From contig CAILKQ010000192.1 of assembly GCA_903834825.1 (NCBI GenBank), forward strand, positions 1 through 36,733: DNA of 36,733 bases, written 5' to 3'. Of this stretch, positions 17,336 to 36,733 are shown piece by piece. The stretch's first letter is position 1. Each line of letters opens with the position of its first letter. The notes below the pieces were generated by a model. The model was not told the DNA's origin, did not search any database, and worked only from the letters and a program-made list of their open reading frames with translations. This stretch comes from an uncultured bacterium (GTDB lineage: Bacteria; Bacteroidota; Bacteroidia; Chitinophagales; Chitinophagaceae). The position numbers were made by a program, and so were the translations under genes.

Positions 17336-17336
17336 A

Positions 17337-20362: not shown

Positions 20363-20382
20363 TTACGGGAACGATTTCGTAA
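20363..20382. promoter_or_regulatory. Candidate LacI-type operator before kduI
   Basis: TTACGGGAACGATTTCGTAA has outer arms TTACG/CGTAA and a central CG, typical of LacI-family operators. A related sequence lies at 33629-33646 in the divergent control region of the other uronate genes. The regulator encoded at 35063 is the natural candidate; this is inference. Confidence 0.35.
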
Positions 20383-20421
20383 AAAGATGCCTTGAAAACC
20401 CATGCACCACCCGTGTTTTTG

Positions 20422-21278: not shown

Positions 21279-21309
21279 TCAATCAACAAGAACCATTAAA
21301 TACATCACC

Positions 21310-22335: not shown

Positions 22336-22364
22336 TTCATTCAATTAGGATAAAATAAAAAATC

Positions 22365-22814
22365 ATGATCATTGATTCAGTGCAGAATGCAAGCAAATAT
22401 TGCAGCATCCATCCTCTTTTTACAAAAGCTTTTGAGTACATCAATACAACAGACCTGGCTTCGTTGGAAGTGGGTAAGTATGATATTGCAGAGGGATTGA
22501 AGGCCATCATTTCAAATAAATCAGGAATGACGGCAGAGGAGTCTGCTGCAAAATTTGAGTGCCACAATGCCAACATTGATATCCAGCTCTGCATCAAAGG
22601 AGTTGAAACACTGGGATGGAAACCCCGCCAAGACTGCAAGTCTGAGCGGGAGCCCTACAATGCTGAAAAGGATGTTTTGTTTTTTACCGATAAGCCCGAT
22701 ATGTTTTTCCAGTTGACTGATGGTCAGTTTGCGATCTTCTTTCCAGAAGATGTACATGCGCCCATGATTGGAGAGGGAGAAATCAAAAAACTGGTGATAA
22801 AGGTTAAAATCTAA
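22365..22814 (+). CDS. YhcH/YjgK/YiaL family sugar-processing protein
   Basis: A 149-residue cupin-like cytoplasmic protein. The family core is visible: FEYINTTDLASLEVGKYDI near residues 23-41, FECHNANIDIQLCIKGVETLGW, and FAIFFPEDVHAPMIGEGEIKKLVIKV at the end, which carries the metal-binding Glu/His positions. Members accompany uronate, sialate and rare pentose operons and are thought to act on sugar anomers or open-chain forms, but the reaction is not firmly established. Here it sits between kdgK and eda, 30 and 42 bp away. Confidence 0.88.
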   Translation: MIIDSVQNASKYCSIHPLFTKAFEYINTTDLASLEVGKYDIAEGLKAIISNKSGMTAEESAAKFECHNANIDIQLCIKGVETLGWKPRQDCKSEREPYNAEKDVLFFTDKPDMFFQLTDGQFAIFFPEDVHAPMIGEGEIKKLVIKVKI

Positions 22815-22855
22815 ATGACTTTCAACATTACATTGATTCACGTAAACATCTTATT

Positions 22856-23518
22856 ATGACAAGTGCTAAAATAGTTATGGACGCCATTGTGGCGCAAGGA
22901 ATGCTCCCCCTTTATTTCAATCCTGATGAAGCCATCAGTATTGGGGTGCTGCGCGCTCTTCACCGTTCAGGTGTTGTAGCCGTGGAATATACCAACAGAG
23001 GCGATGCAGCTCTTCAGAATTTTAAAAAATTGGTTGAGGTGCGCAATGCAGAAATGCCTGGTATGTTGTTGGGTGTGGGGACCATCAAGAACATGCAGCA
23101 TGCTACCGATTACCTGGCTGCTGGTGCTGACTTTCTGGTCAGTCCTGGTTATGTTGCAGAGGTTGCGGCGCATTGTATAAAACATGATATTTTCTTTGGC
23201 CCCGGTTGCATGACACCCACCGACATCATTGCTGCAGAAAACGCAGGAATCAAATTCATCAAATTGTTTCCAGGAAACCTTCTGGGGCCTGAATTCATGA
23301 GCAGCATCAAGGAAATCTTTCCAAAACTGGTATTCATGCCAACAGGTGGCGTAGATACAACCCGTGAAAGCATTGAAGGTTGGTTCAAAGCTGGCGTAAG
23401 TGCAGTGGGAATGGGCAGCAAGTTGGTGAGCAAGAAACTCATGGAAGCCCACGATTATGATGGGATTGAGCGCAGCGCAAAACAGGTTTTTGAATTGATC
23501 AAATCTATCAGGGGGTAA
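22856..23518 (+). CDS. eda: KDPG aldolase
   Basis: A 220-residue class I aldolase that splits 2-keto-3-deoxy-6-phosphogluconate into pyruvate and glyceraldehyde-3-phosphate. The Schiff-base lysine is Lys136 in IKFIKLFPG and the general base is Glu44 in VVAVEYTNRG. GVGTIKN, FLVSPGY, FFGPGCMTPTDI and the phosphate-binding MPTGGV and GVSAVGMGS follow in normal order. Together with kdgK it completes lower hexuronate catabolism within this operon. Confidence 0.94.
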   Translation: MTSAKIVMDAIVAQGMLPLYFNPDEAISIGVLRALHRSGVVAVEYTNRGDAALQNFKKLVEVRNAEMPGMLLGVGTIKNMQHATDYLAAGADFLVSPGYVAEVAAHCIKHDIFFGPGCMTPTDIIAAENAGIKFIKLFPGNLLGPEFMSSIKEIFPKLVFMPTGGVDTTRESIEGWFKAGVSAVGMGSKLVSKKLMEAHDYDGIERSAKQVFELIKSIRG

Positions 23519-23528
23519 ATAACAAATC

Positions 23529-24440
23529 ATGCAACAATCTTTTCTTGCCACCGTCACTTTAGCGCTTATGATTTCATTTTCTGCAACTGCCCAATATGAA
23601 CCTTTGTATAAAAAGAAGGTTCCCAATTTCATTGAAGCAGCCAATGAAGAAACTGAAGCGGTAACTGGAGGTATCCTGAGGATATCAAAAGTTTCAATCC
23701 CCGGGTACGCTTTTTTCAGTGCTGGTGACGATGGAACAAAAAAGCCTTGTGTAATCATTTGCCCAGGTGGTGGCTATGGTATTCTTGCCGCCCAACATGA
23801 GGGAACAGATGTTGCGAAGTTCTTCAACAGCATCGGGGTTCATGCAGTGGTACTCAAATACAGAATACCCTCTGCCAAGCACCAGGAGCACAAAGAAATC
23901 GCTCCCTTGCAGGATGCACAACAGGCCATCTTCATGGTCAGAAAAAATGCAAAGAAATGGGGCATTGATCCTGATAAAATTGGCATCATGGGATTCTCAG
24001 CCGGAGGGCATTTGGCTTCTTCCCTTGGCGTCCATTACAATGACCCAAAGCTTAATTTTAAAGGGAAAACATCATTGAGGCCTGATTTTCAGGTATTGAT
24101 TTATCCCGTAATCTCCTTCAGTAATCATGCACATTTGGGGTCAAGAAATAATTTGTTGAGCCCCGATACCACTGCAAGCCTCATCAACTATTATTCCAAT
24201 GAACTTCAGGTAAATGCCCAAACGCCTCCTGCCTTTTTGGTGCACGCCAAAGATGACAAGGCTGTTCCCATCGAGAATTCAGAAATGTATTTGGCTCAGC
24301 TCAAAAAATTTGGGGTGGCTGGTGAATTGTATGTGTATGAAAAGGGGGGACATGGTTTTGGTATGATCAACAAAACCAGTGATGTGAAATGGACAGACCT
24401 GCTGACAAAATGGATGCAGCAGATGAAAATTATTCTATAG
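23529..24440 (+). CDS. Exported alpha/beta-hydrolase, carbohydrate esterase type
   Basis: A 303-residue secreted esterase with signal peptide MQQSFLATVTLALMISFSATA. It has the hormone-sensitive-lipase-like/acetyl-xylan-esterase layout: PCVIICPGGGYGILAAQHEG (oxyanion region), nucleophile Ser157 in GFSAGGH, acid Asp242/243 in HAKDDKAVP and His275 in GGHGFG. Such proteins remove acetyl or other ester groups from plant polysaccharides. It starts 10 bp after eda, so it belongs to the uronate operon, which suggests decorated pectin, xylan or alginate-like material as the source; the precise ester is unknown. Confidence 0.88.
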   Translation: MQQSFLATVTLALMISFSATAQYEPLYKKKVPNFIEAANEETEAVTGGILRISKVSIPGYAFFSAGDDGTKKPCVIICPGGGYGILAAQHEGTDVAKFFNSIGVHAVVLKYRIPSAKHQEHKEIAPLQDAQQAIFMVRKNAKKWGIDPDKIGIMGFSAGGHLASSLGVHYNDPKLNFKGKTSLRPDFQVLIYPVISFSNHAHLGSRNNLLSPDTTASLINYYSNELQVNAQTPPAFLVHAKDDKAVPIENSEMYLAQLKKFGVAGELYVYEKGGHGFGMINKTSDVKWTDLLTKWMQQMKIIL

Positions 24441-24458
24441 CAGATTTTTTCTTTAAAA

Positions 24459-24490
24459 ATAATGGCGGCCGCAAGAGCGGCCGCCATTAT
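24459..24490. terminator. GC-rich bidirectional terminator between the two uronate operons
   Basis: Perfect 14-bp arms ATAATGGCGGCCGC and GCGGCCGCCATTAT around loop AAGA. The minus-strand side is followed by T-rich sequence, the plus-strand side only weakly so. It lies between the esterase stop (24440) and the stop of the convergent oxidoreductase (24513). Confidence 0.85.
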
Positions 24491-24512
24491 CATATTAACA
24501 GGCTGTGAATGT

Positions 24513-25868
24513 TTAGTACTTGAAGATTTTTCCACCGGCCATTACCTCTTGGGTCTTTTCATCGAAGGTTACTTTTTCTCCTGTTCTTGCTGCCGCATTG
24601 GACATGATGGTAGCAATGGAATGGCTATATCCCGCTTCAACAGGGGCATTGGTTTGTTTTCTGCTCCTGATGCATTCCATCCAGTTGCGCACATGTGCAG
24701 ATGTAAGGGGATCTCCTCCGGTGTTGGCACCCGATTCAACTTTTACAACTTTTTCTGTGAGGTTCATCTCAGGAAGAAGGACTGGCTTCATTCCCATTGG
24801 CTTGGCAAATCTTTCTATGAGTCCACCTTTGGGTGATACCTTGTTGTTGATGAGGTTGAGCTCACCACCAACACTGTAATAGACTTCACTGGCGTTGTCA
24901 TCACCATTGTGCATCCTGGACATGAAGACAACCTGGAATCCTTTGGAAAGATCATCCGTCGGGCCATAATCAAAAACGGCTGTTGTGGTATCCCAGTTCC
25001 TTCTGCCATCTTTCCACTGGTAAACGCCTCCGTTGGCAACCACACTTCTTGGATGTGCAAGCCCGGTAAACCAATGCACTGTATCAATTTGATGGCTCAT
25101 CCACTGACCAGGCATGCCTGATGAATATGGCCAGAACAAACGGTATTCAAGGTATTTGCGGGGGTCGAACTTTTCAAAGGGCCTGTTCATCAAATAGCGC
25201 TTCCAGTCAAGATCCTCTTCATGGCATTTGGCCACAAGGTCTGGCCTGCGCCACCTGCCTGGTTGGTTTACATTCCATGTCAATTCAACCATGGTAATGT
25301 CTCCGAACTGTCCGGATTTGATAAACTTCTCTGCTGCATGGTAATTGGCTCCTGATCTTCTCTGAGATCCAATCTGGATGATCCTGTCAGAGGCCTTTGC
25401 AGCCTTTAATGCTGCACGGTTATCTTCCATGGTTTCAGCAAAAGGTTTCTCTACATAGATGTCTTTGTTGGCTTTCAGCGCTTCAATGGTATGCAAAGCA
25501 TGTTGAAAGTCTGCGGTAGATATCATCACAGCATCAATGTCTTTGAGTGCATACAATTCATCATTGTTTTTGCAACCGATGATGTCGTGCTCAAACTTAT
25601 TTTTCAGGAAATCCACCCCTTCATTCCTGCGTACTTTCCAGATATCGGAAACGGCAACAATGTCGAAATTAAGTTCTTTGTAATGCTGCATGAAAGCGGG
25701 GATATGAGACTGCTTGTGTCTGTCGGAAAATCCTACTACACCAACCCTTACGCGGTCATTGGCGCCTAAAATGTTTCCATACGATTTGGCTGTCCATCCC
25801 ATGGATGCCAGAGCAGTGGCTGCTGTAGCCTGTGCTGTTTGTCTGATGAATGTTCTGCGATGAGTCAT
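24513..25868 (-). CDS. Gfo/Idh/MocA oxidoreductase, Tat-exported (third in operon)
   Basis: A 451-residue NAD(P)-dependent sugar oxidoreductase. The start MTHRRTFIRQTAQATAATALASMG is a twin-arginine signal, so it is exported folded, presumably with its cofactor bound. The Rossmann fold begins at VRVGVVGFSDRH; the catalytic-site motif VEKPFAET is at 139-146, and FWPYSSGMPGQWMSHQIDTVHWFTG carries the His pair typical of the C-terminal domain. Substrate is not predictable; neighbours (DUF1080, uxuA) suggest a glycoside or sugar acid oxidised to a keto form. It is the last gene of the eight-gene minus-strand operon, 21 bp behind the DUF1080 gene. Confidence 0.87.
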   Translation of the reverse strand: MTHRRTFIRQTAQATAATALASMGWTAKSYGNILGANDRVRVGVVGFSDRHKQSHIPAFMQHYKELNFDIVAVSDIWKVRRNEGVDFLKNKFEHDIIGCKNNDELYALKDIDAVMISTADFQHALHTIEALKANKDIYVEKPFAETMEDNRAALKAAKASDRIIQIGSQRRSGANYHAAEKFIKSGQFGDITMVELTWNVNQPGRWRRPDLVAKCHEEDLDWKRYLMNRPFEKFDPRKYLEYRLFWPYSSGMPGQWMSHQIDTVHWFTGLAHPRSVVANGGVYQWKDGRRNWDTTTAVFDYGPTDDLSKGFQVVFMSRMHNGDDNASEVYYSVGGELNLINNKVSPKGGLIERFAKPMGMKPVLLPEMNLTEKVVKVESGANTGGDPLTSAHVRNWMECIRSRKQTNAPVEAGYSHSIATIMSNAAARTGEKVTFDEKTQEVMAGGKIFKY

Positions 25869-25889
25869 GTTTGGGGTTTAAGAGGTTGA

Positions 25890-27266
25890 CTAAAGTTCCT
25901 TGATCTTCATGCTTCTAAAACTAACTTTATCATTATGGTCTTGGATGAGGATTCTGCCTTTGGGCGCCATTCCAAAATTTTCAGTTTTTGCATACTTGCT
26001 TCTTGCCACAAGTGCATTATAAATAGGTGTTCCCCTTTTGTATTCTACCATCTTGAAGCCATTGAGCCAATGTTCAATCATGCCATTGGGGTGGGCTATG
26101 ATTCTTGCACGGTTCCATTCACCAATGGCAGTCCTGTCTCTTCTGTTGGCATTGGGGTCAAGCCCGGTAGCAGCAGGAATCAGGTCATACAAAGATGCCA
26201 TTGTTCTGTTTCCTCCTACGCCCATTTTGGCATCAGGATGTTTTGCATCATCGAGGATTTGGAACTCCGGACCAACTCCTGCTTTTTTGTCTTTGCTTGG
26301 AACAATAAAATATTTGATTCCAGAATTGGCACTATCGGTGATTTTGAATTCAAATTGAAAGTCGAAAGCACCAAATTCCTTTTCGGTAATGATGTCGCCA
26401 CCATCTACACGCTCTTCGTTACCCGCATTCCGAATAGACAACTCACCATTGGCGATTTCCCATCCTTTTGATGGAAAGGCAGACATATTTGCTGACTGCC
26501 ATCCTGTGGATGATTTACCATCCCACAGCAGAGAATAACCCTGCTTTTTTTCTTCATCAGATACAGTGTTGTTGAGGAGATTAACAACAAAGATATTGTC
26601 TGAAGGGGATGGCTTCAGGTTGGTTGTTTTGATCTTGATGTTTTTCCAATGGATTTCTTTTCCTTCATCTTCCTTGTTTTTAATGGCATGAACCTGAAGG
26701 GCAATAAAGCCTTGGGGTGTGAGGTCATCAATGAGATAGGAGCAAGCCACACCATTGATCCAGGTCCTGATGGTATTGCCAATACACTCAATCTTGTAGT
26801 GGTTCCAATCCGTTTTTTTAAATGCTTTTTGGGCAGGTTGATTATAATCAAGTGGGTAGAGCCATCCACGCCTTGCTTCATCATAAATTCCGCCACTCCA
26901 GGCCCTTTCAGACGGATCTACTTCTGCCTGGTAACCCCTTACCCTGTCTGGTACCTTGTTGTTGGCGCCTTCATTGGAAGTGATGCTCCTGAACTGGATG
27001 CCCGAATTCATGTCGGCAAACATTTTCAGGTCAAGCTCCAAAATGAAATCACCATACAGTTTTTCCGTAGCCAGGAATGAGTTGGGCTCTCCGTGCACAG
27101 TTGTGCCAACGATTTCTCCATTTTTTACTGCGTATTTGGCTTTTCCATTCAATTGCTTGAACCCGCTGAGGTCTTTGCCGTTGAACAGGGAAGTCCATTC
27201 GCTTTTTTGTTGTGCCATTGCCATTGTAAACAAAAGGCAAGACAGCATTGTCATTTTGATCTTCAT
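25890..27266 (-). CDS. Exported protein with two DUF1080 (3-keto-glycoside hydrolase-type) domains
   Basis: A 458-residue periplasmic or surface protein with signal peptide MKIKMTMLSCLLFTMAMA. Two concanavalin-like DUF1080 domains follow: residues about 22-215 (WTSLFNGKDLSGFKQLNG, GDFILELDLKMFADMNSGIQFRS, WNHYKIECIGNTIRTWINGV) and about 240-458 (YSLLWDGKSSTGW, FGAFDFQFEFKITDSANSGIKYFI, GPEFQILDD, EWNRARIIAHPNGMIEHWLNG). DUF1080 enzymes in Bacteroides cleave glycosides after C3 oxidation by partner oxidoreductases. The second copy keeps the most typical sequence. It lies between the SDR (17 bp) and a Gfo/Idh/MocA gene (21 bp). Confidence 0.88.
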   Translation of the reverse strand: MKIKMTMLSCLLFTMAMAQQKSEWTSLFNGKDLSGFKQLNGKAKYAVKNGEIVGTTVHGEPNSFLATEKLYGDFILELDLKMFADMNSGIQFRSITSNEGANNKVPDRVRGYQAEVDPSERAWSGGIYDEARRGWLYPLDYNQPAQKAFKKTDWNHYKIECIGNTIRTWINGVACSYLIDDLTPQGFIALQVHAIKNKEDEGKEIHWKNIKIKTTNLKPSPSDNIFVVNLLNNTVSDEEKKQGYSLLWDGKSSTGWQSANMSAFPSKGWEIANGELSIRNAGNEERVDGGDIITEKEFGAFDFQFEFKITDSANSGIKYFIVPSKDKKAGVGPEFQILDDAKHPDAKMGVGGNRTMASLYDLIPAATGLDPNANRRDRTAIGEWNRARIIAHPNGMIEHWLNGFKMVEYKRGTPIYNALVARSKYAKTENFGMAPKGRILIQDHNDKVSFRSMKIKEL

Positions 27267-27283
27267 ATATGTAATTGTAATTT

Positions 27284-28105
27284 TTATACTCCTCCAAACG
27301 CCACAAACCCACCATCAACGCCAATATCCGTTCCATTCACAAATTTAGATGCATCACTCAATAGATAGATCAATGCGCCTATCAACTCATCGGGTTTCCC
27401 CATCCTGTTGTCTGGTGTTTTTTTGATAACCAGGGTTCCTCGTTCAGTGTAGGAGCCATCTGGGTTGGTCAGTAAGGTTCTGTTTTGTTCTGTCAAAAAG
27501 AATCCTGGCATGATGGAGTTGATGCGGATCTTATCGCCATGTCTTTTTGCTGTTTCAACGGCCATCCATTTGGTAAAGCAATCTACACCAGCCTTTCCAA
27601 TGCTGTAGCCAAGCACTTTTGTAATGACTTGTTTTGCACTTACAGATGAAATGTTGACGATGCTTCCCCCATTTTGTTTGGCCATGGCGGAGCCTATAAT
27701 TTTGGTTGGGATGATGGTGCCCATAAGATTGAGGTCGAGCACTTGTCTCAAGCCATCAATGTTCATGTCAAATACATCTTGGTCTGGCTGGATAACACCC
27801 TGGGGCATGTTGCCGCCAGCGCCATTGACGAGTCCGTCAATGCTGCCGAATTTTTCGAGTGTAATGTCCCGGACTTTTTCCATGTCTTTTTCATCCAATA
27901 CATTTCCTTTGATGAAAAGGGCCTTTCCGCCATTGGCATTGATTTCTGCCGCACGCTTGTTTCCTTCCTCCTCATTTCTTCCAACAATTACTGCAGTGCC
28001 TCCAAAGGAAACGATGCCTTCGATGAAGGCCTTTCCCAGGATACCAGTTCCTCCGGTAACAACAATCACTTTGTCTTGTAATGAAAACAATGTTGAATAA
28101 CTCAT
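27284..28105 (-). CDS. SDR oxidoreductase, likely D-fructuronate reductase (mannonate oxidoreductase)
   Basis: A 273-residue classical short-chain dehydrogenase: cofactor motif TGGTGILG (17-24), NGAGG (94-98), catalytic Ser153/154, Tyr167 and Lys171 (YSIGK). It has no signal peptide, so it is cytoplasmic. The operon has uxuA directly upstream (121 bp), and no UxuB of the polyol-dehydrogenase type is seen; an SDR of this kind commonly fills the fructuronate-to-mannonate step in Bacteroidota. A KduD-like role (2,5-diketo-3-deoxygluconate to KDG) would also fit, because kduI is present without kduD. The sequence alone does not settle which. Confidence 0.85.
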   Translation of the reverse strand: MSYSTLFSLQDKVIVVTGGTGILGKAFIEGIVSFGGTAVIVGRNEEEGNKRAAEINANGGKALFIKGNVLDEKDMEKVRDITLEKFGSIDGLVNGAGGNMPQGVIQPDQDVFDMNIDGLRQVLDLNLMGTIIPTKIIGSAMAKQNGGSIVNISSVSAKQVITKVLGYSIGKAGVDCFTKWMAVETAKRHGDKIRINSIMPGFFLTEQNRTLLTNPDGSYTERGTLVIKKTPDNRMGKPDELIGALIYLLSDASKFVNGTDIGVDGGFVAFGGV

Positions 28106-28226
28106 TTTTTATTTTTTGATCAAACTGTTCATGATGCCAAGCATCTTTCAACAGCATATTTATAATGTCTTGTTCAGTACAATGGATAATCAGCGAATCA
28201 ATACAATTGGCGCTGAAGCCATTTCA

Positions 28227-29399
28227 TCAAAGTCCACTTCTCAAAATCCCCAATTGCAATCCGCGCAGTTCGGCCAGTCCCCTCAATCTTCCAATGCAAG
28301 AGTAGCCGGGGTTGGTGACTTTTTTCAGGTCATCAATCATTTGGTGTCCATGGTCTGGTCTGAAAGAAATTTGGTTGGGCACATCCTGCTGAATTTTCAA
28401 CAATTCCTTCATCACAGCATACATGTCTGTATTGCCTCCCAAGTGATCATCTTCAAAGAAATTGCCATCTGCATCACGCCTCGTGTTTCTGAGGTGTATA
28501 AAGTGAACGCGGGACCCCAATGCTTTAGCCATGGATGGCAGGTCATTGTTGGGGTTTGCGCCAAAAGATCCAGTGCAGAAACAGACGCCGTTGCTTTTGT
28601 TGGGAACCGCATTGATGATGAACTCAACATCCTCCAAGTTCTTTACAATTCTTGGAAGTCCAAGGATATCGATTGGCGGATCATCTGGGTGTATGGCCAA
28701 TTCAAGACCCAATGCATCACAAAGGGGTGTAATCTGTTGAAGGAAATAAACCAGGTTGCTACGAAGTACATCGGCATTGATGTCGTCATAACGGGAAAGC
28801 TTTTCCCTCATGTCTTCAACCGTAATTTTCTTTTCGCCAGGGATGCCAAACATCACAACGCCTGCAATCTTATCCAGTTCTTCTTGTGTGTAAGCCGCAT
28901 GACGGGTTTCCGCTTCTGCCACAACGTTGGCAGGGTAGGAGGCTGCAGCATTTTTACGCTGGAGGATATAAATGTCAAACACTGCCAGATCCACCCAATT
29001 GAAATAAAGGGCTTTTGATCCGTCAGGCATTTCATAATCAAGATTGGTCCTTGTCCAGTCGTTGACCGGCATGAAATTATAGGTAATGACCCTTAACCCG
29101 GCCTTGGCCAGATTGCTGAGGCTTTCTTTGTATTTTTCTATCCAAGATTGAAAATTGCCAGTCCTGGTTTTGATTTCTTCGTGTATGGTCACACTTTCTA
29201 CCACGTCCCAGGTAAGGCCATAAGATTCAATCAAGGCCTTTCTTTCCATGATTTCTTCATAGCTCCATACTTCACCATGCGGTACATGGTGCAATGCGGT
29301 AACAATGCCAGCTGCGCCTGTTTGTTTGATGTCTTGAAGGCTGACGGGATCATTGGGGCCAAACCATCTCCATGTTTGTCTCAGTTCTTTCATGTTCAT
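28227..29399 (-). CDS. uxuA: D-mannonate dehydratase
   Basis: A 390-residue TIM-barrel metalloenzyme that dehydrates D-mannonate to 2-keto-3-deoxygluconate. Signatures: MKELRQTWRWFGPNDPVSLQDIKQTGAAGIVTALHHVPHGEVW at the start, VVESVTIHEEIK, RVITYNFMPVNDWTRTNLDY, LAIHPDDPP, GVCFCTGSFGANPNNDLP, HFIHLRNTRR and FRPDHGHQM with the metal-binding His. Length is typical. The ATG at 29399 overlaps the stop of the plug-protein gene by four bases (ATGA), so translation is probably coupled; a second Met is two codons in. Confidence 0.95.
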   Translation of the reverse strand: MNMKELRQTWRWFGPNDPVSLQDIKQTGAAGIVTALHHVPHGEVWSYEEIMERKALIESYGLTWDVVESVTIHEEIKTRTGNFQSWIEKYKESLSNLAKAGLRVITYNFMPVNDWTRTNLDYEMPDGSKALYFNWVDLAVFDIYILQRKNAAASYPANVVAEAETRHAAYTQEELDKIAGVVMFGIPGEKKITVEDMREKLSRYDDINADVLRSNLVYFLQQITPLCDALGLELAIHPDDPPIDILGLPRIVKNLEDVEFIINAVPNKSNGVCFCTGSFGANPNNDLPSMAKALGSRVHFIHLRNTRRDADGNFFEDDHLGGNTDMYAVMKELLKIQQDVPNQISFRPDHGHQMIDDLKKVTNPGYSCIGRLRGLAELRGLQLGILRSGL

Positions 29400-29980
29400 T
29401 GTGTTATGATCTCTACTTTTTCGATATTTTTTTTGAGTATTTCTTTTTTTCTCAACAAAATGCTGCTGTCGGTTTCTTTGGTAATGACGCCATTGGCAAT
29501 GCTCTTCCCATCTTTTCCGATAATCTTCAATTCAATGCCTTTGCTGATGAAGTATTGATAGGCTGACTTCTCATAAGTACTCACAGCAGCGGGGGGTGTT
29601 CCTGAACCATTTTTAGTGGTGATGACAATGACTCCTCCAAATCCACGACCTCCATAGGCAGCAGTGGCCGCTTCATCTTTCAACGCAGTCATGGATGCCA
29701 CATCCATGGGGTTGATCATGGAAATGTCACCATCATAAATGGCCTTGTCCACAACGAAAATGGCAGGTACCTTTCCTTTCATATTTCTTGCATCCCTGAT
29801 GTATACCTGCTGTTGGGTTTTGAGGCTGCCGGAATTCATTGAAATTTCTACACCAGGAATTGTGCGCAGGAGGTCAAAAATATTTCTCACTGCACCACTG
29901 CTGATGTCTTGTGTGGTTTGGGCTATTGATCCCATAGCACACAAAATTGCCAATAAAAATCCAGTTGATGTGGTGATCAT
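29396..29980 (-). CDS. Stand-alone TonB-plug-like protein without a barrel
   Basis: A 194-residue exported protein with signal peptide MITTSTGFLLAILCAMGSIA. Residues about 30-128 match the plug domain of TonB-dependent receptors: NIFDLLRTIPGVEIS, QQVYIRDARNMKGKVPAIFVVDKAIYDGDISMINPMDVASMTALKDEAATAAYGGRGFGGVIVITTK. No beta-barrel follows; instead there is a short charged tail (about 130-194) ending KKNIEKVEIITQ, and the frame closes with a normal TGA. Four-base overlaps link it to the genes before and after, so this is an intended small protein, not a fragment. Function unknown: perhaps a receptor partner or periplasmic adaptor. Confidence 0.8.
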   Translation of the reverse strand: MITTSTGFLLAILCAMGSIAQTTQDISSGAVRNIFDLLRTIPGVEISMNSGSLKTQQQVYIRDARNMKGKVPAIFVVDKAIYDGDISMINPMDVASMTALKDEAATAAYGGRGFGGVIVITTKNGSGTPPAAVSTYEKSAYQYFISKGIELKIIGKDGKSIANGVITKETDSSILLRKKEILKKNIEKVEIITQ

Positions 29981-31323
29981 TTTTTGGTATTGGCGAGTTC
30001 TTTTGCTTTTGTTGTGGTATAATATTTGGCAATCATGTTGGGCACTTCCCAGGCTGGCATGTTGTTGTTTTGAAGATAATCCAGGTATTTTTTGGTAACC
30101 TGTGCAAAATGGGATTCATGTCCGTCATTGTATTTTTCAGGAACGCTGATGGTCCAACCATTGCTGATCTTCACCAATGCAATGCCAGGGAATGTTTGGC
30201 TGATTTTTTGGATGCTTGCTTTCAATTTGTCTTCAAATGCAGCATCCTTCTGCCTTTGCTCAATATAAAGGGTAGGCTTGAAATTCTCTTCCTTGCCTTG
30301 CTTGATGATCAGAGAAGCCTTTGTTCCACGCATCAAGGAATAATGGGTGTCTCCGGTGCCTTCAGGGGCCTTGTAGTTCCAGACCACTGAAACCTTGGCA
30401 TGAACACCATTGATGTTGTAGGTGAACGCTCCGTTGCAATTTACCTGGATATCCCCTTTTGCATCACTGATGGCCTTGAGATAATCAGGAACGGCTTCCT
30501 TTGTTACCAATGTAAAATCAGCTGTGGTTACCGGAGTTGTCCAACTCTTTGCCTCGAGGATGCGCACGTTCTTCTTGTAGTCAATTACCTGGCCTGGGAA
30601 ACATTCCCATTGGATAAGGTCTACAAGGTGTGTTGTAACATCCACGATTCCTGCTCCCTGTTGGTTATCATCAAAGAACCATGAAGGCCTTGTCAGCACA
30701 CTTCCTGATACATACTTGTAAAAATGATGAACACTGATCTTGGTGACAGAAGGATCTTCAGGAGTTCCTTTTTCAAGGGTTCCAAAAAATTCAGTGTCCA
30801 AGGAGAAGGCACGTTGCAATTGGGTGGTGATTTCAAAACGTTCAGTCATGATATCATAGAGCTGAACCCCTTTTTTCTTGGCCTCGTTGAACGCCAGTTT
30901 CAGCTGCTCAAATCCTTTGGTATCAACCGCCATGGGCTTGTCTGCAAAAACATGGAATCCATTGCGCACAGACTCCAGGATATAGTTTGTTTTCAACCGG
31001 TTGTTGCCTGCCAGTACCACCACATTGCCTTTTTTTTCTGCAATCATCTTGGCAAAAAAATCCTTGCCTGTATACACATTTTCTTTCCATGCAGTAGGCT
31101 CGGCTGTCCTTTTGTTGTAACCATCGATTTTTTCAAGGTGCAACTTGAGGTCCCTGCTATCTTCAGCATAAACATGCACTGTTGGGTCTACCTGGGGGTA
31201 CATGGATTTTTGGATCAATGCTGCATGAAAATGTCCGGGATCAAGGGTGATCAGTTTGATGTTCTGTGCCTTCATCATCAATGGGCATGCAAGGAGTAAA
31301 AATGAAAAATAATTGCGTTTCAT
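29977..31323 (-). CDS. Gfo/Idh/MocA-type oxidoreductase, Sec-exported (second in operon)
   Basis: A 448-residue periplasmic protein. Residues 1-19 (MKRNYFSFLLLACPLMMKA) are a Sec-type signal, unlike the Tat signals of its three relatives in this locus. It starts with IKLITLDPGHFHAALIQKSMYPQVDPTVHVYAED instead of a plain GxGxxG, and the EKP motif is VFADKPMAVD. The C-terminal part (DFTLVTKEAVPDYLKAISDAKGDIQVNCNG, HYSLMRGTKASLIIKQG) is of the putative oxidoreductase C-terminal type. A Sec-exported Rossmann enzyme must acquire its nucleotide outside or hold none, so dehydrogenase activity is less sure than for its neighbours. Overlaps the plug gene by four bases. Confidence 0.83.
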   Translation of the reverse strand: MKRNYFSFLLLACPLMMKAQNIKLITLDPGHFHAALIQKSMYPQVDPTVHVYAEDSRDLKLHLEKIDGYNKRTAEPTAWKENVYTGKDFFAKMIAEKKGNVVVLAGNNRLKTNYILESVRNGFHVFADKPMAVDTKGFEQLKLAFNEAKKKGVQLYDIMTERFEITTQLQRAFSLDTEFFGTLEKGTPEDPSVTKISVHHFYKYVSGSVLTRPSWFFDDNQQGAGIVDVTTHLVDLIQWECFPGQVIDYKKNVRILEAKSWTTPVTTADFTLVTKEAVPDYLKAISDAKGDIQVNCNGAFTYNINGVHAKVSVVWNYKAPEGTGDTHYSLMRGTKASLIIKQGKEENFKPTLYIEQRQKDAAFEDKLKASIQKISQTFPGIALVKISNGWTISVPEKYNDGHESHFAQVTKKYLDYLQNNNMPAWEVPNMIAKYYTTTKAKELANTKK

Positions 31324-31330
31324 GTGTAAT

Positions 31331-32725
31331 TTATGATAGTCCTTTTACCAAATAGGGGAATCGATGTTGTCTGTTGAGCAAGGCATTGGCCTCGTCGTCA
31401 TTGATAAAGCGTTCGTTCAAAGGATCCCAGTGCAGGGGCCTTGGCAGGCGCATGGCAATGTGGTGGATCAGGCAGGTAGAGCATCCGCGATGACCAACTT
31501 CTACAGGGGTGATGGGTTGTTTTCTGGTGGTAATGCAATCCAGCCAGTTTCCATGGTGCTCATCACTGCGGTAAAGATTGATTTCATTGGCGCCAATCAC
31601 TGATTCGATGATTTTGGGGTTGCTGGCAGAAAGTGCTTTTTGGTTGGGCACTGCAGGTTCGTTAGCGCTGGCCTTGTAATTGCCACGGGTAACAAAGATC
31701 CAGCCCTCTGATCCAACAAATTTCACGCCATTGGGCAATTCCGTGCTGATGGTCATTGTAACACCATTGGCATATTTGCCATGGGTGGTAAAGGATCCAT
31801 GGACATTCCAAAGGCCTGATTTAGGGAATTCTGCCTTGCCCCAAACCTCAACGGGGCCGGTATATTCCGTATCCATGCCCCAATGGGCTATGTCTACGTG
31901 GTGGGTACCCCAGCCGGTGATCATGCCTGCGCCAAACTGCTCACAACGCAGCCAACCTGGTCTGCTGTAGTCATTTTGTGGGTGCACGCGTTTTTCTGTA
32001 TAATAACTATAAGGGGTTGAACCCAGCCATGCATCATAATTCAATGTTTTGGGGATGGGCATTTCTGGCTCTACCTCTCCACCAGGATCGCTGGGCAATC
32101 CAATGAATACTTCTTTGAGCGCACCAATGCGTCCGTTCCTAACCAGTTCTGCAGCATACCTGAATTGTGGGGATGATCTTTGCTGACTGCCAATCTGAAG
32201 AATTTTACCATTCCTGTGAACGGCATTGCTCAAGGCCCTTCCTTCTGCAATGGTCAGGGATGCTGGCTTTTGCAAGTACACATCTTTTCCTGCCTCCACT
32301 GCATGAATCCCCAAAAAGGCATGGGAATGGTCAGGCGTACTGATCAACACGGCATCAATGTCCTTGTTCAGCAACATTTCCTGATGATCTCCATACATGC
32401 TGACACCATCATAGGCCTTCCCGGTTTTTTTGGTATAATACTCGTTTACATATTGTTTTCCTTCAGCGAGTCGCTTGGAATCAACATCGCATACAGCCAT
32501 GATCCTGGCATGGTCATATTTGAGTGTTTCTGCCATGTCATGGTCTCTTGAAATCCTTCCCACGCCGATGGCACCGATATTTATTTTGTTGCTTGGCGCA
32601 TCCTTGCCCATCACATGGGCTGGAACGATGGTAGGAAATCCAAGAGAGGCGATCCCGGTAGCGACGCCAGTCTTGACGGTGGATTTCATGAAATCCCTTC
32701 TGTTGAATCCTTTGTTGTCAGGCAT
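31331..32725 (-). CDS. Gfo/Idh/MocA oxidoreductase, Tat-exported (first in operon)
   Basis: A 464-residue exported oxidoreductase from the ATG at 32725, whose start MPDNKGFNRRDFMKSTVKTG is a twin-arginine signal; a longer frame to 32851 would overlap the ThuA gene by over 120 bases and has no signal. Rossmann start INIGAIGVGRISRDH, AVCDVD, ISTPDHSHAFLGIHAVEAGKDVYLQKPASLTIAEGR: Gln replaces the Glu of EKP, a known variant. GAGMITGWGTHHVDIAHWGMD carries the conserved His residues of the second domain. It is four bases behind the ThuA gene. ThuA next to a Gfo/Idh enzyme recalls ThuAB, which makes 3-keto-trehalose in rhizobia. Confidence 0.88.
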   Translation of the reverse strand: MPDNKGFNRRDFMKSTVKTGVATGIASLGFPTIVPAHVMGKDAPSNKINIGAIGVGRISRDHDMAETLKYDHARIMAVCDVDSKRLAEGKQYVNEYYTKKTGKAYDGVSMYGDHQEMLLNKDIDAVLISTPDHSHAFLGIHAVEAGKDVYLQKPASLTIAEGRALSNAVHRNGKILQIGSQQRSSPQFRYAAELVRNGRIGALKEVFIGLPSDPGGEVEPEMPIPKTLNYDAWLGSTPYSYYTEKRVHPQNDYSRPGWLRCEQFGAGMITGWGTHHVDIAHWGMDTEYTGPVEVWGKAEFPKSGLWNVHGSFTTHGKYANGVTMTISTELPNGVKFVGSEGWIFVTRGNYKASANEPAVPNQKALSASNPKIIESVIGANEINLYRSDEHHGNWLDCITTRKQPITPVEVGHRGCSTCLIHHIAMRLPRPLHWDPLNERFINDDEANALLNRQHRFPYLVKGLS

Positions 32726-32729
32726 GGTC

Positions 32730-33557
32730 TTATTTTTTAATTTCTTCGTCCCTGTTGGTTGCATAGGCTTTTGTGTAATCAATACCCTTGTACAAAGAGA
32801 TGATGTATTTAAGCCCTTGTACCAGATGATTTTTATAAACAGGGTCAGCATAGGTTTCCTTGCTGTGCCCCAGGGTGCTTACCCAAACATGGCCACCCTG
32901 GAAATCATTGTACCATACGGCTGGGTAAAACTCAGCATAGGTTCCTGCATTTTTGGTGATCAAGTCTTTCTGTGATTGGTCAAGGGTTGTAAACTGATGA
33001 GACATCAGTACGTTGGTGACAGGGTAGAGCTCCTTGCCAAAATACAATTCGTCCTCCCTTTCCCAAATCAATGGAACGCCATTCATGGAAGGATGGCTGG
33101 GGTCTGTTTTCCGCACGGTGAATTTCTGGAATTTTGCATGCCAGGCAAAGGTACATCCTAACATCATTTTGAACCATTTCCAGTTGCGCTCTGTGCCTGT
33201 TACAGAATGCAATCCCACGAAACCACCACCTGCTTCCATGTAACGCCTGAACGCCAAGCGTTGTGCATCTGTATCAAATACATCATTGTTGGTGCTGGGG
33301 AAAACAAGGAGGGTAAACTGTTTCAGGTTTTCTTCAGTAAAATTCGCCGGATCGTCACTTACCGTAATTTTCCAATTCTCCTCCTTGGCAATTCCTTTTA
33401 GCGCCTCTACAGCTGAGGGGATGTTGTCGTGGATGAAACCTTTTCCATTTTTGGTGTAAACCAACAGGGAGATATTTTTAGCGTTTTTTTTGCTTTGTGC
33501 TTCAAGGTTGAATGTTGAAAACAGTACAAACAGTGGCAGTAAAATAAGATACTTCAT
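32730..33557 (-). CDS. Exported ThuA-domain protein
   Basis: A 275-residue protein with signal peptide MKYLILLPLFVLFSTFNLEA, then a class I glutamine-amidotransferase-like ThuA domain: ISLLVYTKNGKGFIHDNIPSAVEAL, ENLKQFTLLVFPSTNNDVFD, AFRRYMEAGGGFVGLHSVTGTERNWKWFKMMLGCTFAWHAKFQ, ELYFGKEL, FPAVWYNDFQGGHVWVSTLGHSKETYADPVYKNHLVQGLKYI-like end. ThuA domains lack the usual amidotransferase Cys, and their reaction is unsettled; genetic data from rhizobia link ThuA to 3-keto-disaccharide metabolism. It is the first gene of the minus-strand operon, so its upstream region (33558-33765) holds the operon promoter, shared divergently with the gene at 33766. Confidence 0.87.
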   Translation of the reverse strand: MKYLILLPLFVLFSTFNLEAQSKKNAKNISLLVYTKNGKGFIHDNIPSAVEALKGIAKEENWKITVSDDPANFTEENLKQFTLLVFPSTNNDVFDTDAQRLAFRRYMEAGGGFVGLHSVTGTERNWKWFKMMLGCTFAWHAKFQKFTVRKTDPSHPSMNGVPLIWEREDELYFGKELYPVTNVLMSHQFTTLDQSQKDLITKNAGTYAEFYPAVWYNDFQGGHVWVSTLGHSKETYADPVYKNHLVQGLKYIISLYKGIDYTKAYATNRDEEIKK

Positions 33558-33628
33558 GTGGGGCTGTTTCGTTGATTGTTTAATAGACGGTAATTTACAT
33601 AAAAATCATACGTGTTCTGCCATGGCTT

Positions 33629-33646
33629 TTACGAAAACGTTATAGG
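33629..33646. promoter_or_regulatory. Candidate LacI-type operator in the divergent control region
   Basis: TTACGAAAACGTTATAGG contains a central AACGTT and agrees with the site before kduI (20363-20382) at 12 of the first 16 positions. It lies between the divergent ThuA and Gfo/Idh/MocA genes. A second short palindrome, GGGTCTTTGACCC, is at 33732-33744, close to the plus-strand start. Confidence 0.33.
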
Positions 33647-33765
33647 GAAAAACAAGTTTTTGCCCCTTCTGTCCTGTTATTTTAACTAACTTGAAACAGT
33701 ATTCATCAATATTGTACCATTTAACAATTCCGGGTCTTTGACCCAAATGGAAAAAACTTCTATTT

Positions 33766-35061
33766 ATGAGCTCGAATCAACGCAGAAAATTCCTCAAACA
33801 AACCACTGCTGCTGCTTTGGCTTTTTCTATTGTGCCAAGATTTGTGATTGGAGGCCCCGGCTTTACTGCCCCCAGCGACATGATCAATCTTGGATTTATC
33901 GGCACAGGTAAACAGTCCCGCAGCCTGCTAAATAGTTTTAAAGATAAGGCCAACATCATTGCTGGCGCAGATGTTGATGCACTCAAACTCAACTATTTTC
34001 TTTCCCTTTTGTACAAATATTATACCAACGCCAGAAAAGACGGCAAAGGCCCTGATTACAAAGGATTCACTGCCTATGAAGACTACAAAGAGATCCTGGG
34101 CCGAAAAGACATTGACGCAGTGGTGATTTCAACCCCTGACCATTGGCATGCTGTTCAAGCCATTCAAGCTTCCAATGCAGGGAAGCATGTCTACTGCGAA
34201 AAGCCCCTTGCGCACAGCGTTGAAGAGGGAAGGGCCATGGTTGATGCTGCAAGAAAAAACAAGATTGTTTTCCAGACAGGCAGCATGCAGCGCTCATGGA
34301 AAAATTTCAGGCATGCTTGTGAACTGGTCAGAAACGGATATTTGGGAAAAATAACTGAGGTATTGGTAGCAGTTGGCGATCCTTCCATAAAGTGTGATCT
34401 TCCGGCGAAGCCAGTAAGAGCTGGATTGAATTGGGATCAGTGGATTGGGCCTGCGCAATTCCGTGAATTCAGTCCGGTGCTTGCTCCTCCTGTTGAAGAG
34501 GATATTTTCCCTAATTGGAGAAATTATAAGGAATACGGCGGAGGGATGGTTTCAGACTGGGGTGCTCACATGTTCGACATCGCCCAATGGGCGTTGGGAA
34601 TGGACGAGAGCGGCCCTGTCAAGTTTATTCCATCGGAAGGAACAGCCAAGAGAGGCTTGCAGATGGTCTATGAGAATGGCATTGTCATGAAACATCAGGA
34701 TTTTGGCAGGAGCAATACTGTACGCTTCATCGGTGAAAAAGGACGTTTAGATGTAAGCCGGTCCATTCTTGACAGCGATCCTGCCAATATTGTTTCTGCT
34801 ACCATTCAGCCCAATGAAACCAGGCTGTATGAGTCCAACGACCATTACCTGGATTGGCTTGACTGCATCAAAACAGGAAAGAAGCCTGTTTGTGATGTGG
34901 AGATCGGGCACAGGACTAGTTCTGTTTGCAACGTGGCCAACATTGCTTATGCCTTGCGCCGTCCGCTAGAATGGAATCCCACCAAAGAAAAATTCAAAAA
35001 CGATAAAGAGGCCAACGCCCTCTTGGCGCCAAACTTCAGGGAAGGATGGAAACTGGGTTAA
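33766..35061 (+). CDS. Gfo/Idh/MocA oxidoreductase, Tat-exported (divergent copy)
   Basis: A 431-residue exported oxidoreductase with twin-arginine signal MSSNQRRKFLKQTTAAALAF. Rossmann motif INLGFIGTGKQSR, AGADVD, ISTPDHWHAVQAIQASNAGKHVYCEKPLAHSVEEGR with a standard EKP, then TGSMQRSWKNFRHACELVRNGYLG and GGGMVSDWGAHMFDIAQWALGMDE. It resembles the protein at 31331 more than the other two, and the closing HRTSSVCNVANIAYALRRPLEWNP matches that protein's end. It is followed after one base by the LacI-type regulator, so the two are cotranscribed. Confidence 0.88.
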   Translation: MSSNQRRKFLKQTTAAALAFSIVPRFVIGGPGFTAPSDMINLGFIGTGKQSRSLLNSFKDKANIIAGADVDALKLNYFLSLLYKYYTNARKDGKGPDYKGFTAYEDYKEILGRKDIDAVVISTPDHWHAVQAIQASNAGKHVYCEKPLAHSVEEGRAMVDAARKNKIVFQTGSMQRSWKNFRHACELVRNGYLGKITEVLVAVGDPSIKCDLPAKPVRAGLNWDQWIGPAQFREFSPVLAPPVEEDIFPNWRNYKEYGGGMVSDWGAHMFDIAQWALGMDESGPVKFIPSEGTAKRGLQMVYENGIVMKHQDFGRSNTVRFIGEKGRLDVSRSILDSDPANIVSATIQPNETRLYESNDHYLDWLDCIKTGKKPVCDVEIGHRTSSVCNVANIAYALRRPLEWNPTKEKFKNDKEANALLAPNFREGWKLG

Positions 35062-35062
35062 A

Positions 35063-36073
35063 ATGAATGGAATAAGCATGATCCAGCTTGCAAAAGAGCT
35101 GGGATTGTCGGTATCTACCGTTTCTAAAGCAATTGGCGACAGCCATGAAATCAGTGCGTCTACCAAAAAACGGGTGCTAGAACTGGTAAAAAAGTACAAG
35201 TACAAACCCAACCCTTTTGCCAGCAATCTCCGAAAGAAGAAAGGAAAACAGATTGCTGTGATCATCCCTGATATTGTCAATAACTTCTTTGCCTTGGCAG
35301 TTGATGGGATAGAAAGTGTCACCATGTCTAAACATTACGACACGTTCATTTACCTCACCCATGAAAACCTTGAGAGGGAAAAAGCGGTGCTGGAGCACCT
35401 TGAGTCTGGGCTCATCTCCGGACTGATCATTTCTGTTTGTACCGGCAGGGAAGGGTATTCCCATTTTCAAGAATTCTACGAAGCCACCAAACTGCCCCTT
35501 GTTTTTTTTGACAGGGTACCCGATCTGTTGCAGTTCCCGAAAGTCATTACCAACAATTATGAAAGTTCCTTTGATGCTACAGTCAGGCTCATCAAGGCTG
35601 GGAGCAAAAGGCCGGTATTGATTACCACTACAGAGCCGATGTTCACATCAATGGAAAGAAGAAGGGGTTATCAGGATGCCTTAGAAAAGCAAGGGATTGT
35701 TTTTACAGATGAGATGATCATCCATTGTACAGACGACATGGAGTTGAATTATACCATTCTCCGGAAAATATTTTCTCAAAAAAAACGACCTGATGGCATT
35801 TTTGCTTCTATCGAAAAATATGCCATTACCAGTTACCAGGTTTGCAAAGACCTGAAACTGGTAATACCCAAGGATGTTAAGGTGATTGGAATGACCAACC
35901 TGCGCACTGCCGCCTTGTTGAACCCATCGCTTTCAACCCTTTCCCAGCCAGCATTTGACATGGGAAAAGAAGCTGCAGGACTGCTGATCAAGATGATTGA
36001 AAAGAAATCTTATGCAGCTGCCAATGACATCATCGTGCTGCCCAATGAACTTACCATCAGGGATTCAATCTAA
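35063..36073 (+). CDS. LacI-family transcriptional regulator
   Basis: A 336-residue regulator. HTH and hinge at 1-58: ISMIQLAKELGLSVSTVSKAIGDSHEISASTKKRVLELVKKYKYKPNPFASNLR; the ligand-binding periplasmic-binding-protein-like domain follows from IAVIIPDIVNNFFALAVDGIE to the end (GIFASIEKYAITSYQVCKDL, ALLNPSLSTLSQPAFDMGKEAAGLLI). Lying amid uronate genes, it probably senses a uronate intermediate and controls the kduI, ThuA/uxuA and uxaC transcription units; this is inference. Candidate operators with a central CG lie at 20363 and 33629. It starts one base after the oxidoreductase gene. Confidence 0.93.
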   Translation: MNGISMIQLAKELGLSVSTVSKAIGDSHEISASTKKRVLELVKKYKYKPNPFASNLRKKKGKQIAVIIPDIVNNFFALAVDGIESVTMSKHYDTFIYLTHENLEREKAVLEHLESGLISGLIISVCTGREGYSHFQEFYEATKLPLVFFDRVPDLLQFPKVITNNYESSFDATVRLIKAGSKRPVLITTTEPMFTSMERRRGYQDALEKQGIVFTDEMIIHCTDDMELNYTILRKIFSQKKRPDGIFASIEKYAITSYQVCKDLKLVIPKDVKVIGMTNLRTAALLNPSLSTLSQPAFDMGKEAAGLLIKMIEKKSYAAANDIIVLPNELTIRDSI

Positions 36074-36266: not shown

Positions 36267-36733
36267 ATGTCATCATCGACCAATGGCTTTATCCAGGAGA
36301 ATTTCTTGCTGCAATCATCCCTTGCTGAAAAACTCTATCATGATGTTGCTGCAAAACAGCCTATCATTGATTATCATTCCCATCTTTCTCCTTTTGAAAT
36401 TGCGACCAACAGGAAATATGAAAATATTACCCGGATTTGGTTGAGCGAGGACCATTACAAATGGCGTGCCATGCGTGGAGCTGGTGTCAATGAGCGTTTC
36501 ATCACGGGTGATGCAACGGATGAGGAGAAATTTCAGGCTTGGGCTGAAACCGTTCCACAAACAGTAAGGAATCCATTGTTTCATTGGACCTACCTTGAAT
36601 TGAAGAATTCTTTTGGGATAACTGAATACCTGAATCCTGCTTCGGCCTCCCGGATTTACAGTCAATGCAATGAATTGCTTTCCGGAGAGGAACATACGGC
36701 AAGAAAATTCCTCGAGCAATACAACGTGGTTTA
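36267..36733 (+). CDS. uxaC: Glucuronate isomerase, N-terminal part (cut by window end)
   Basis: The frame from the ATG at 36267 stays open to the end of the window (155 codons seen of an expected ~465). It starts MSSSTNGFIQENFLLQSSLAEKLYHDVA and carries the uronate-isomerase hallmarks: IIDYHSHLSPFEIATNRKYENI with the metal-binding HxH, WLSEDHYKWRAMRGAGVNERFITGDA, and FQAWAETVPQTVRNPLFHWTYLELKNSFGI. The enzyme converts glucuronate to fructuronate and galacturonate to tagaturonate in the cytoplasm. Its product feeds the SDR and UxuA encoded on the minus strand. It lies 193 bp after the regulator, so it may have its own promoter. Confidence 0.93.
   Translation, partial: MSSSTNGFIQENFLLQSSLAEKLYHDVAAKQPIIDYHSHLSPFEIATNRKYENITRIWLSEDHYKWRAMRGAGVNERFITGDATDEEKFQAWAETVPQTVRNPLFHWTYLELKNSFGITEYLNPASASRIYSQCNELLSGEEHTARKFLEQYNVV

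Follow-up and report, generated by a model that had tools for sequence, protein, structure and literature searches.

The window analysed here is the whole of contig CAILKQ010000192.1, 36,733 bases from an uncultured member of the Chitinophagaceae (assembly GCA_903834825.1; 2.63 Mb in 205 contigs, 93.5% complete), and our subject is a group of genes in which oxidoreductases, a DUF1080 protein and a ThuA protein, of families linked to 3-keto sugar chemistry, stand among genes for hexuronate breakdown. On the minus strand lies an operon of overlapping or nearly abutting genes in the order ThuA, GFO3, GFO2, a plug-only protein, UxuA, a short-chain dehydrogenase/reductase (SDR), a double DUF1080 protein and GFO1, where GFO1 to GFO4 denote four Gfo/Idh/MocA proteins. 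A divergent plus-strand unit holds GFO4, a LacI-family regulator and UxaC, and a third unit (20448-24440) holds KduI, a PfkB kinase, Eda and an esterase. All the proteins named in a preliminary description of this DNA are present by Pfam and NCBIfam matches; its gene list has to be amended by the plug-only gene between GFO2 and UxuA, which it missed, and by the LacI gene, which sits between GFO4 and uxaC. It counted uxaC among the genes of these units, but that gene lies beyond the interval 24513-35061 that it covered and is truncated by the contig end.

The D-mannonate dehydratase UxuA (28227-29399, minus strand) matches TIGR00695 with 477 bits against a cut-off of 199.55, and the SDR beside it (27284-28105, minus) is of the D-mannonate oxidoreductase type (NF006132/PRK08277, 326 bits, cut-off 281) and would take the UxuB role. 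Of the glucuronate isomerase UxaC the contig retains the first 155 codons (36267-36731, plus); in relatives the protein is full length, at 472-482 amino acids. The LacI-family regulator (35063-36073, plus) is recognised by Pfam and NCBIfam. In the third unit Pfam identifies KduI (20448-21278, plus; PF04962, KduI/IolB) and the PfkB-family kinase (21310-22335, plus), which is KdgK by context, and an Eda-type aldolase for 2-keto-3-deoxy-6-phosphogluconate or 2-keto-4-hydroxyglutarate (22856-23518, plus) is assigned by family match. Judged by these matches, the contig carries a complete predicted hexuronate gene set of UxaC, UxuB-type SDR, UxuA, KdgK and Eda, and each of the five steps of the route proposed in the preliminary description has a candidate gene, those for KdgK and Eda lying with KduI in the third unit. 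These are the steps of the classical hexuronate operons (UxaC-UxuB-UxuA-KdgK-Eda), which are not known to carry exported Gfo, DUF1080 or ThuA genes.

Oxidoreductases, double DUF1080 protein and ThuA

GFO1 (24513-25868, minus), GFO2 (29977-31323, minus), GFO3 (31331-32725, minus) and GFO4 (33766-35061, plus) all score above the cut-off for PF01408 and have a C-terminal domain match above cut-off; GFO2 is a Gfo-like protein of family PF16490. The listed open reading frame of GFO3 opens at 32851, and we place its start instead at the ATG 4 bp behind thuA (32725), from which a leader for twin-arginine translocation (Tat) begins. The catalytic residues of the family, a lysine (EKP-type, K-P) and the HxxD motif, are kept in at least 95% of the sequences compared (17 for GFO1, 54 for GFO2, 42 for GFO3 and 14 for GFO4), and the GxGxxG nucleotide motif is partly retained in GFO3 and GFO4, has PGHFH in its place in GFO2 and is degenerate in GFO1. 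Leaders were called by visual inspection and from the RR pattern: RR-x-[FLM] is present in 15 of 17 GFO1, 39 of 42 GFO3, all 14 GFO4 and 1 of 54 GFO2 sequences. The conserved RR leader, together with the TatC encoded in the same genome, predicts Tat export of GFO1, GFO3 and GFO4, and GFO2 has a leader of the general secretory (Sec) type.

Among solved structures, 8tdf and 8tdh, which we take to be glycoside 3-dehydrogenases, match GFO1, GFO3 and GFO4 best and rank ahead of glucose-fructose oxidoreductase; those of GFO4 also include glucose-fructose and aldose-aldose oxidoreductases. GFO2 is closest to 4oo3 (520 bits). A single enzyme of the glycoside hydrolase (GH) 109 type was considered as well; no GH109-named family appears among the listed Pfam and NCBIfam matches (no separate GH109 search was made).

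The double DUF1080 protein (25890-27266, minus; Sec-type leader), of which GFO1 is a frequent neighbour, matches PF06439, named '3-keto-disaccharide hydrolase', over two stretches (271 bits against a cut-off of 26.8, 6e-81) and resembles 4jqt over its full length (485 bits). Its C-terminal half is like 8v31, 8tda and 8rr2; its N-terminal half has strong likeness to 4jqt only, with weak matches to 3u1x, 3imm and 3hbk. The protein is kin of solved PF06439 members, and hydrolysis or elimination of 3-keto-glycosides is its predicted activity. ThuA (32730-33557, minus), the first gene of the operon and also with a Sec-type leader, matches PF06283 (193 bits against a cut-off of 33.4, 9.8e-57), and the single solved relative found for it is 4jqs/4pxy. 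Measured against close relatives, with unsaturated dS only, the ratio of non-synonymous to synonymous substitution (dN/dS) is 0.01-0.14 for GFO1, DUF1080, UxuA, the plug-only gene, GFO2, GFO3 and ThuA, and these seven genes are under purifying selection. A second cluster of this kind in the same genome (L172, G000:C58) combines GH10, GH20, a SASA-type esterase, DUF1080 and a Gfo protein with an RR leader.

Linkage with uronate genes in other genomes

Neighbours of uxuA were surveyed in the best 80 of 325 UxuA loci, 20 of them close relatives and 60 others; the loci are 3.0-21.2 kb long, and the counts are therefore lower bounds. The nearest relatives are mostly Chitinophagaceae metagenome assemblies, several of which presumably bear the names of lakes. 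Every one of the 20 close loci carries part of the Gfo/ThuA/DUF1080 set, and 18 of the 60 distant ones, among them loci of Flavobacterium, Fibrella, Fibrivirga, Adhaeribacter and Agriterribacter, have Gfo, ThuA or double-DUF1080 genes (GFO3 with GFO2 in 13 of 60, the full ThuA-GFO3-GFO2 trio in 11). The linkage with uxuA is not specific to this strain; the preliminary description had named restriction to this strain as grounds for refutation, and the survey shows otherwise.

Genomes sampled across the phylum were surveyed as well. Of 198 such genomes 13 have PF16490, and every one of these also has UxuA, a gene present in 52 of the 198 overall (Fisher 8e-9, own genome included and kinship ignored). 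With our own genome left out, 2 of the remaining 12 have PF16490 no more than 12 kb from UxuA (0.08 expected, P 0.003); for a sample of the family the figures are 2 of 16 at that distance, one being a partial UxuA match (0.13 expected, P 0.008), and 4 of 16 when the limit is set at 40 kb (0.43 expected, P 0.001). PF16490 copies beside uxuA are therefore far commoner than chance, though a minority. Matches to double DUF1080 were obtained in 50 of the 247 genomes sampled from the phylum, in 3 of them over one half only. Among the 32 other genomes that have both this gene and UxuA, 5 have the two no more than 12 kb apart (0.25 expected, P 6e-6); one genus supplies three of these five, and with that genus counted once (3 cases) P is 0.002. 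In L151-L155 double DUF1080 stands beside UxaC, SDR and UxuA, with Gfo proteins only distantly like GFO1 or GFO4 in four of the five, and in L154 genes for a tripartite ATP-independent periplasmic (TRAP) transporter lie between uxuA and DUF1080. On a tree of 30 of 37 DUF1080 sequences, near-copies left out, the uronate label needs six changes even when only well-supported branches are counted, which implies repeated gains or losses of the linkage; a GFO2 tree, built without 8 of the close loci and without copies that were short or scored low, forces at least 4 changes. The coupling of 3-keto-type families to the uronate pathway is real, kept by selection and extends well beyond this strain.

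The genes travel in modules. Twenty regions around double-DUF1080 matches were taken from the 50 genomes, 5 near UxuA and 15 mostly the highest-scoring others (in one, L168, gene calling had missed the DUF1080 gene). Of the 14 non-uronate loci called, 7 have a GFO1 orthologue (646-784 bits) adjoining the double DUF1080, for which reason we regard DUF1080-GFO1 as one module. The second module is GFO3-GFO2, frequently accompanied by ThuA or DUF6807, and is found in the uronate loci L120, L128, L142 and L078. Among cultured relatives, Fibrella forsythiae (L071), Agriterribacter humi (L072) and Pollutibacter soli (L040) have the module beside uxuA, and the locus of Foetidibacter luteolus (L033) does not. 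Within the window's clade, L026-L028 and the same-genus genome G053 have DUF1080-GFO1 without the trio, PF16490 being absent from the whole G053 genome; L022, L029 and L030 have GFO3, GFO2 and GFO1, and there tblastn likewise gives no DUF1080 at the locus; L020 and L023 have ThuA, GFO2, DUF1080 and GFO1 and no close GFO3. This distribution fits two partly interchangeable opening modules, though the missing genes may lie elsewhere in those genomes. Outside the clade DUF6807 (PF14100) lies beside GFO3-GFO2 in many loci (L114-L150; for instance L120:2565-3803 and L128:5565-6815) and is a candidate glycoside-opening partner of that pair. Its predicted fold (two usable rows; mean predicted local distance difference test score, pLDDT, of 44) was set aside and supports no conclusion; that DUF6807 takes the place of DUF1080 is a lead from gene company only.

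Two of the window's units also have a putative regulatory site in common. A LacI-type operator-like site, TTTACGAAAACGTT, lies in the divergent ThuA/GFO4 promoter (33628-33641, plus), and a second copy, TTTACGAAATCGTT, upstream of kduI (20370-20383, minus); with at most one mismatch the motif TTTACGAAAWCGTT occurs in the window at these two places only, where 0.01 occurrences are expected. In a scan of 28 loci and the window, the core ACGAAAACGT was found at the corresponding divergent promoter in all 12 close loci that hold that promoter (L014, L015, L018, L020, L023-L030) and upstream of kduI in L017, L019 and L020, and a variant, ACGATAACGT, at the thuA/SusC promoter of L146. The common site suggests that the ThuA/GFO4 unit and the KduI-KdgK-Eda unit form one uronate regulon; the LacI protein would bind this site, and most likely it senses a pathway intermediate.

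A proposed glycoside-opening route and competing explanations

On balance we favour, with some reserve, the reading that the window encodes a single uronate regulon, part of which is an exported 3-keto section for opening oligosaccharides that bear uronic acids. Tat-exported Gfo proteins with a bound nicotinamide cofactor would oxidise C3 of such an oligosaccharide outside the inner membrane, the activated glycoside would be opened by the double DUF1080 protein and, alongside it, by the ThuA-GFO3-GFO2 module, and a Gfo protein would re-reduce the 3-keto sugar, which would make the cycle redox-neutral. The free uronate would then be imported by a transporter of the major facilitator superfamily (MFS), whose gene is found in 8 of the 20 close loci but is missing from the corresponding gap of the window, or by TRAP as in L154, and would pass through UxaC, SDR/UxuB, UxuA, KdgK and Eda. 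Chemistry of this kind is known for these families, and we infer that here it is directed at uronosides; the likeliest substrates are oligosaccharides bearing glucuronate or methylglucuronate, for example from glucuronoxylan or algal polysaccharides. A redox-neutral opening cycle outside the inner membrane is suggested by the motifs, the solved relatives and the chemistry described in PMC9007349 and PMC10628242.

Several observations weigh against this reading. The equivalog models of the two characterised Bacteroides dehydrogenases are far from reached, both for BT_2158 (NF058561, cut-off 750 bits: GFO4 179, GFO3 131, GFO1 86) and for BT_2159 (NF058563, cut-off 650 bits: GFO1 33, GFO4 28, GFO3 26), GFO2 having no match listed to either. 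The bound cofactor and the redox neutrality are taken from relatives and may not carry over. The operator-like site is missing from the kduI promoter of L024 and from the intergenic DNA of seven more distant loci, so that it looks clade-specific. Most sampled copies of PF16490 and double DUF1080 are not near uxuA, and the DUF1080-GFO1 pair in half of the called non-uronate loci counts here too. GFO3-GFO2 also occurs in loci with xylan genes, accompanied by GH10 and a PF22244 esterase in L122 and L127, by GH51 in L130 and by GH67 and GH115 in L123, and GFO2 without GFO3 in the amino-sugar (NagA/NagB) loci L126, L132 and L141. The alpha-glucuronidase GH67 is found in 11 of 19 PF16490 genomes against 16 of 60 other sampled genomes; for GH115 the figures are 10 of 19 and 18 of 60. 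Our own genome has 5 GH88-family matches (2 strong) and 3 GH2 matches (1 strong). With the modules also in xylan, amino-sugar and non-uronate loci, the assignment of a substrate rests on gene company; of the preliminary interpretation, the coupling to the uronate pathway stands, and action on glucuronides and dedication to them are proposals.

Much of this evidence also bears on a different explanation, which we consider rather unlikely, namely that the modules act on neutral residues (xylose, glucose or an amino sugar) of uronic-acid glycans, with GH2, GH88/105 or GH67/GH115 freeing the uronate, so that the coupling would run through a common polysaccharide and not a common residue. It would account for the modules beside GH10, GH51, GH3, the PF22244 esterase, which is of carbohydrate esterase (CE) 15 type, GH67 or GH115 (L117, L122, L123, L127, L130), for GFO2 beside NagA/NagB and for the GH88 and GH2 matches of our own genome, and the characterised DUF1080 members named in PMC9007349 act on neutral sugars. 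It sits less well with L128, L142, L152 and L153, where modules accompany UxaC or UxuA and the reference set of glycoside hydrolases has no match (some frames there being unannotated), or with an operator-like site and transcription units common to modules and uronate genes. We give little credence to the proposal that the Gfo proteins work on free monosaccharides, by aldose-aldose oxidoreduction or epimerisation, and ready an unusual uronate such as 4-O-methylglucuronate for UxaC with no glycoside opening at all: some solved relatives of GFO4 are enzymes of just this type, glucose-fructose oxidoreductase among them, and in L123 GFO3-GFO2 lies beside alpha-glucuronidases that would free 4-O-methylglucuronate, but 8tdf and 8tdh outrank glucose-fructose oxidoreductase for GFO1, GFO3 and GFO4, and a hydrolase-type double DUF1080 adjoins the GFO1 orthologue even in the 7 of 14 non-uronate loci. 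Slimmer still are the chances that the linkage is incidental, with generic accessory genes of polysaccharide loci falling near uxuA in sugar-rich genomes. The 13 DUF1080-family matches in our own genome, the many copies elsewhere that are not near uxuA and co-occurrence statistics that ignore phylogeny would all agree with it; against it stand co-location above random placement, overlapping or near-abutting genes, an operator-like site that recurs in the divergent promoter of every one of the 12 close loci holding that promoter, and a DUF1080 tree on which the linkage was gained or lost repeatedly.

Since GH67 and GH115 are both commoner in PF16490 genomes, the idea that the PF16490 Gfo simply replaces them across the family is ruled out. 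In L123 (G004) GFO3-GFO2 lies inside a locus with GH67 and GH115, and in L117 (G048) GFO2 lies inside one with GH115, which suggests a role beside, not instead of, alpha-glucuronidases in those genomes. Our own genome has one GH10 xylanase and, like the same-genus G053, no GH67 and no GH115, which fits the module as an alpha-glucuronidase stand-in here. More tentatively, and as an idea we ourselves hold doubtful, we speculate that Bacteroidota have more than once assembled a redox-neutral, non-classical 'uronidase' outside the inner membrane, with which small-genome lake bacteria with GH10 do without GH67 and GH115: swappable modules (double DUF1080 with Gfo; ThuA-GFO3-GFO2, elsewhere with DUF6807) would free glucuronate or 4-O-methylglucuronate from oligosaccharides by C3 oxidation and pass it directly to UxaC-UxuB-UxuA-KdgK-Eda under one LacI protein.

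Compared with known systems, the window combines familiar parts in other company. In rhizobia ThuA/ThuB serve trehalose use, and ThuA lies next to a Gfo dehydrogenase as it does here; in the window ThuA has an export-type leader and uronate genes around it. The Bacteroides BT_2157-2159 pathway for 3-keto-glycosides, in which a DUF1080 hydrolase works with the Gfo dehydrogenases BT_2158 and BT_2159, has the DUF1080 (PF06439) and Gfo families in common with the window. GFO4, GFO3 and GFO1 match the N-terminal half of the BT_2158 model, far below its cut-off; the DUF1080 protein has two domains here and one there; and here the genes are built into a uronate group. BT2157 is a characterised 3-ketotrehalose hydrolase and CCNA_01705 a proposed 3'-ketolactose hydrolase according to PMC9007349. 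In the same paper, the Caulobacter lactose route of LacABC and CCNA_01705 resembles ours in a proposed periplasmic oxidation followed by DUF1080 hydrolysis, and differs in that LacABC is membrane-bound and acts on lactose and similar glycosides, not uronosides (PMC9007349). An Agrobacterium operon proceeds by C3 oxidation and elimination, with hydration and reduction by a Gfo protein on preliminary evidence; this order of oxidation, elimination, proposed hydration and Gfo re-reduction is the likeness, and a TIM-barrel Mn eliminase and natural-product O-glucosides are the differences (PMC10628242). DUF1080 genes have been linked to growth on xanthan, which bears glucuronate, and are assigned to its glucan backbone (PMC5673643).

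Among the matches listed in open PubMed Central, titles and abstract openings contain no report of 3-keto enzymes coupled to uronate catabolism, most subscription papers lying outside that collection; the coupling, which the preliminary description believed undescribed, is novel within that limit. A 2024 paper in Nature reportedly presents a broad alternative route of glycan breakdown. If the reading we favour is true, glucuronate side chains, a bottleneck in the breakdown of xylan and of many algal and bacterial polysaccharides, would be removable by an oxidation-based route, and the absence of GH67 and GH115 would not imply inability to use glucuronoxylan. It also offers testable substrates for families that are apparently little characterised or not at all: PF16490, exported ThuA, DUF6807 and two-domain DUF1080.

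Plug-only protein and other features

The plug-only gene (29396-29980, minus; 194 amino acids) overlaps both its neighbours, GFO2 and UxuA, by 4 bp, and encodes a leader, a SusC-type plug and a C-terminal part (residues 141-190) that is predicted to form a small Hfq/Sm-like beta-barrel (mean pLDDT 85-91; whole model 72). For the barrel part Foldseek gives template modelling scores of up to 0.80 by target with E-values of 1e-3 to 8e-3, ranking behind the SusC plug matches, and Pfam has no match for residues 141-190. The protein is present in 13 close relatives and in L146, and decay from SusC is ruled out by a dN/dS of 0.07-0.14 where measurable. If the model is right, the protein would join a plug to an Sm-like barrel and carry both out of the cytoplasm, which would be odd.

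The last gene of the KduI unit (23529-24440, plus) encodes an esterase of the BD-FAE type by family match, with a Sec-type leader. Between GFO4 and thuA (33558-33765) the window holds no transporter; in relatives this gap holds the MFS gene of 8 close loci and, in L020, SusC/SusD. A gene for an EamA-type transporter follows GFO1 in 9 of the 20 close loci; the window has none in the corresponding stretch (24441-24512). Antisense to uxuA runs an open frame of 300 amino acids (28116-29018, plus), which has no family match and is probably spurious. At 14270-18344 (plus) lie a PKD/CHU_C substrate of type IX secretion and then PorP/SprF.

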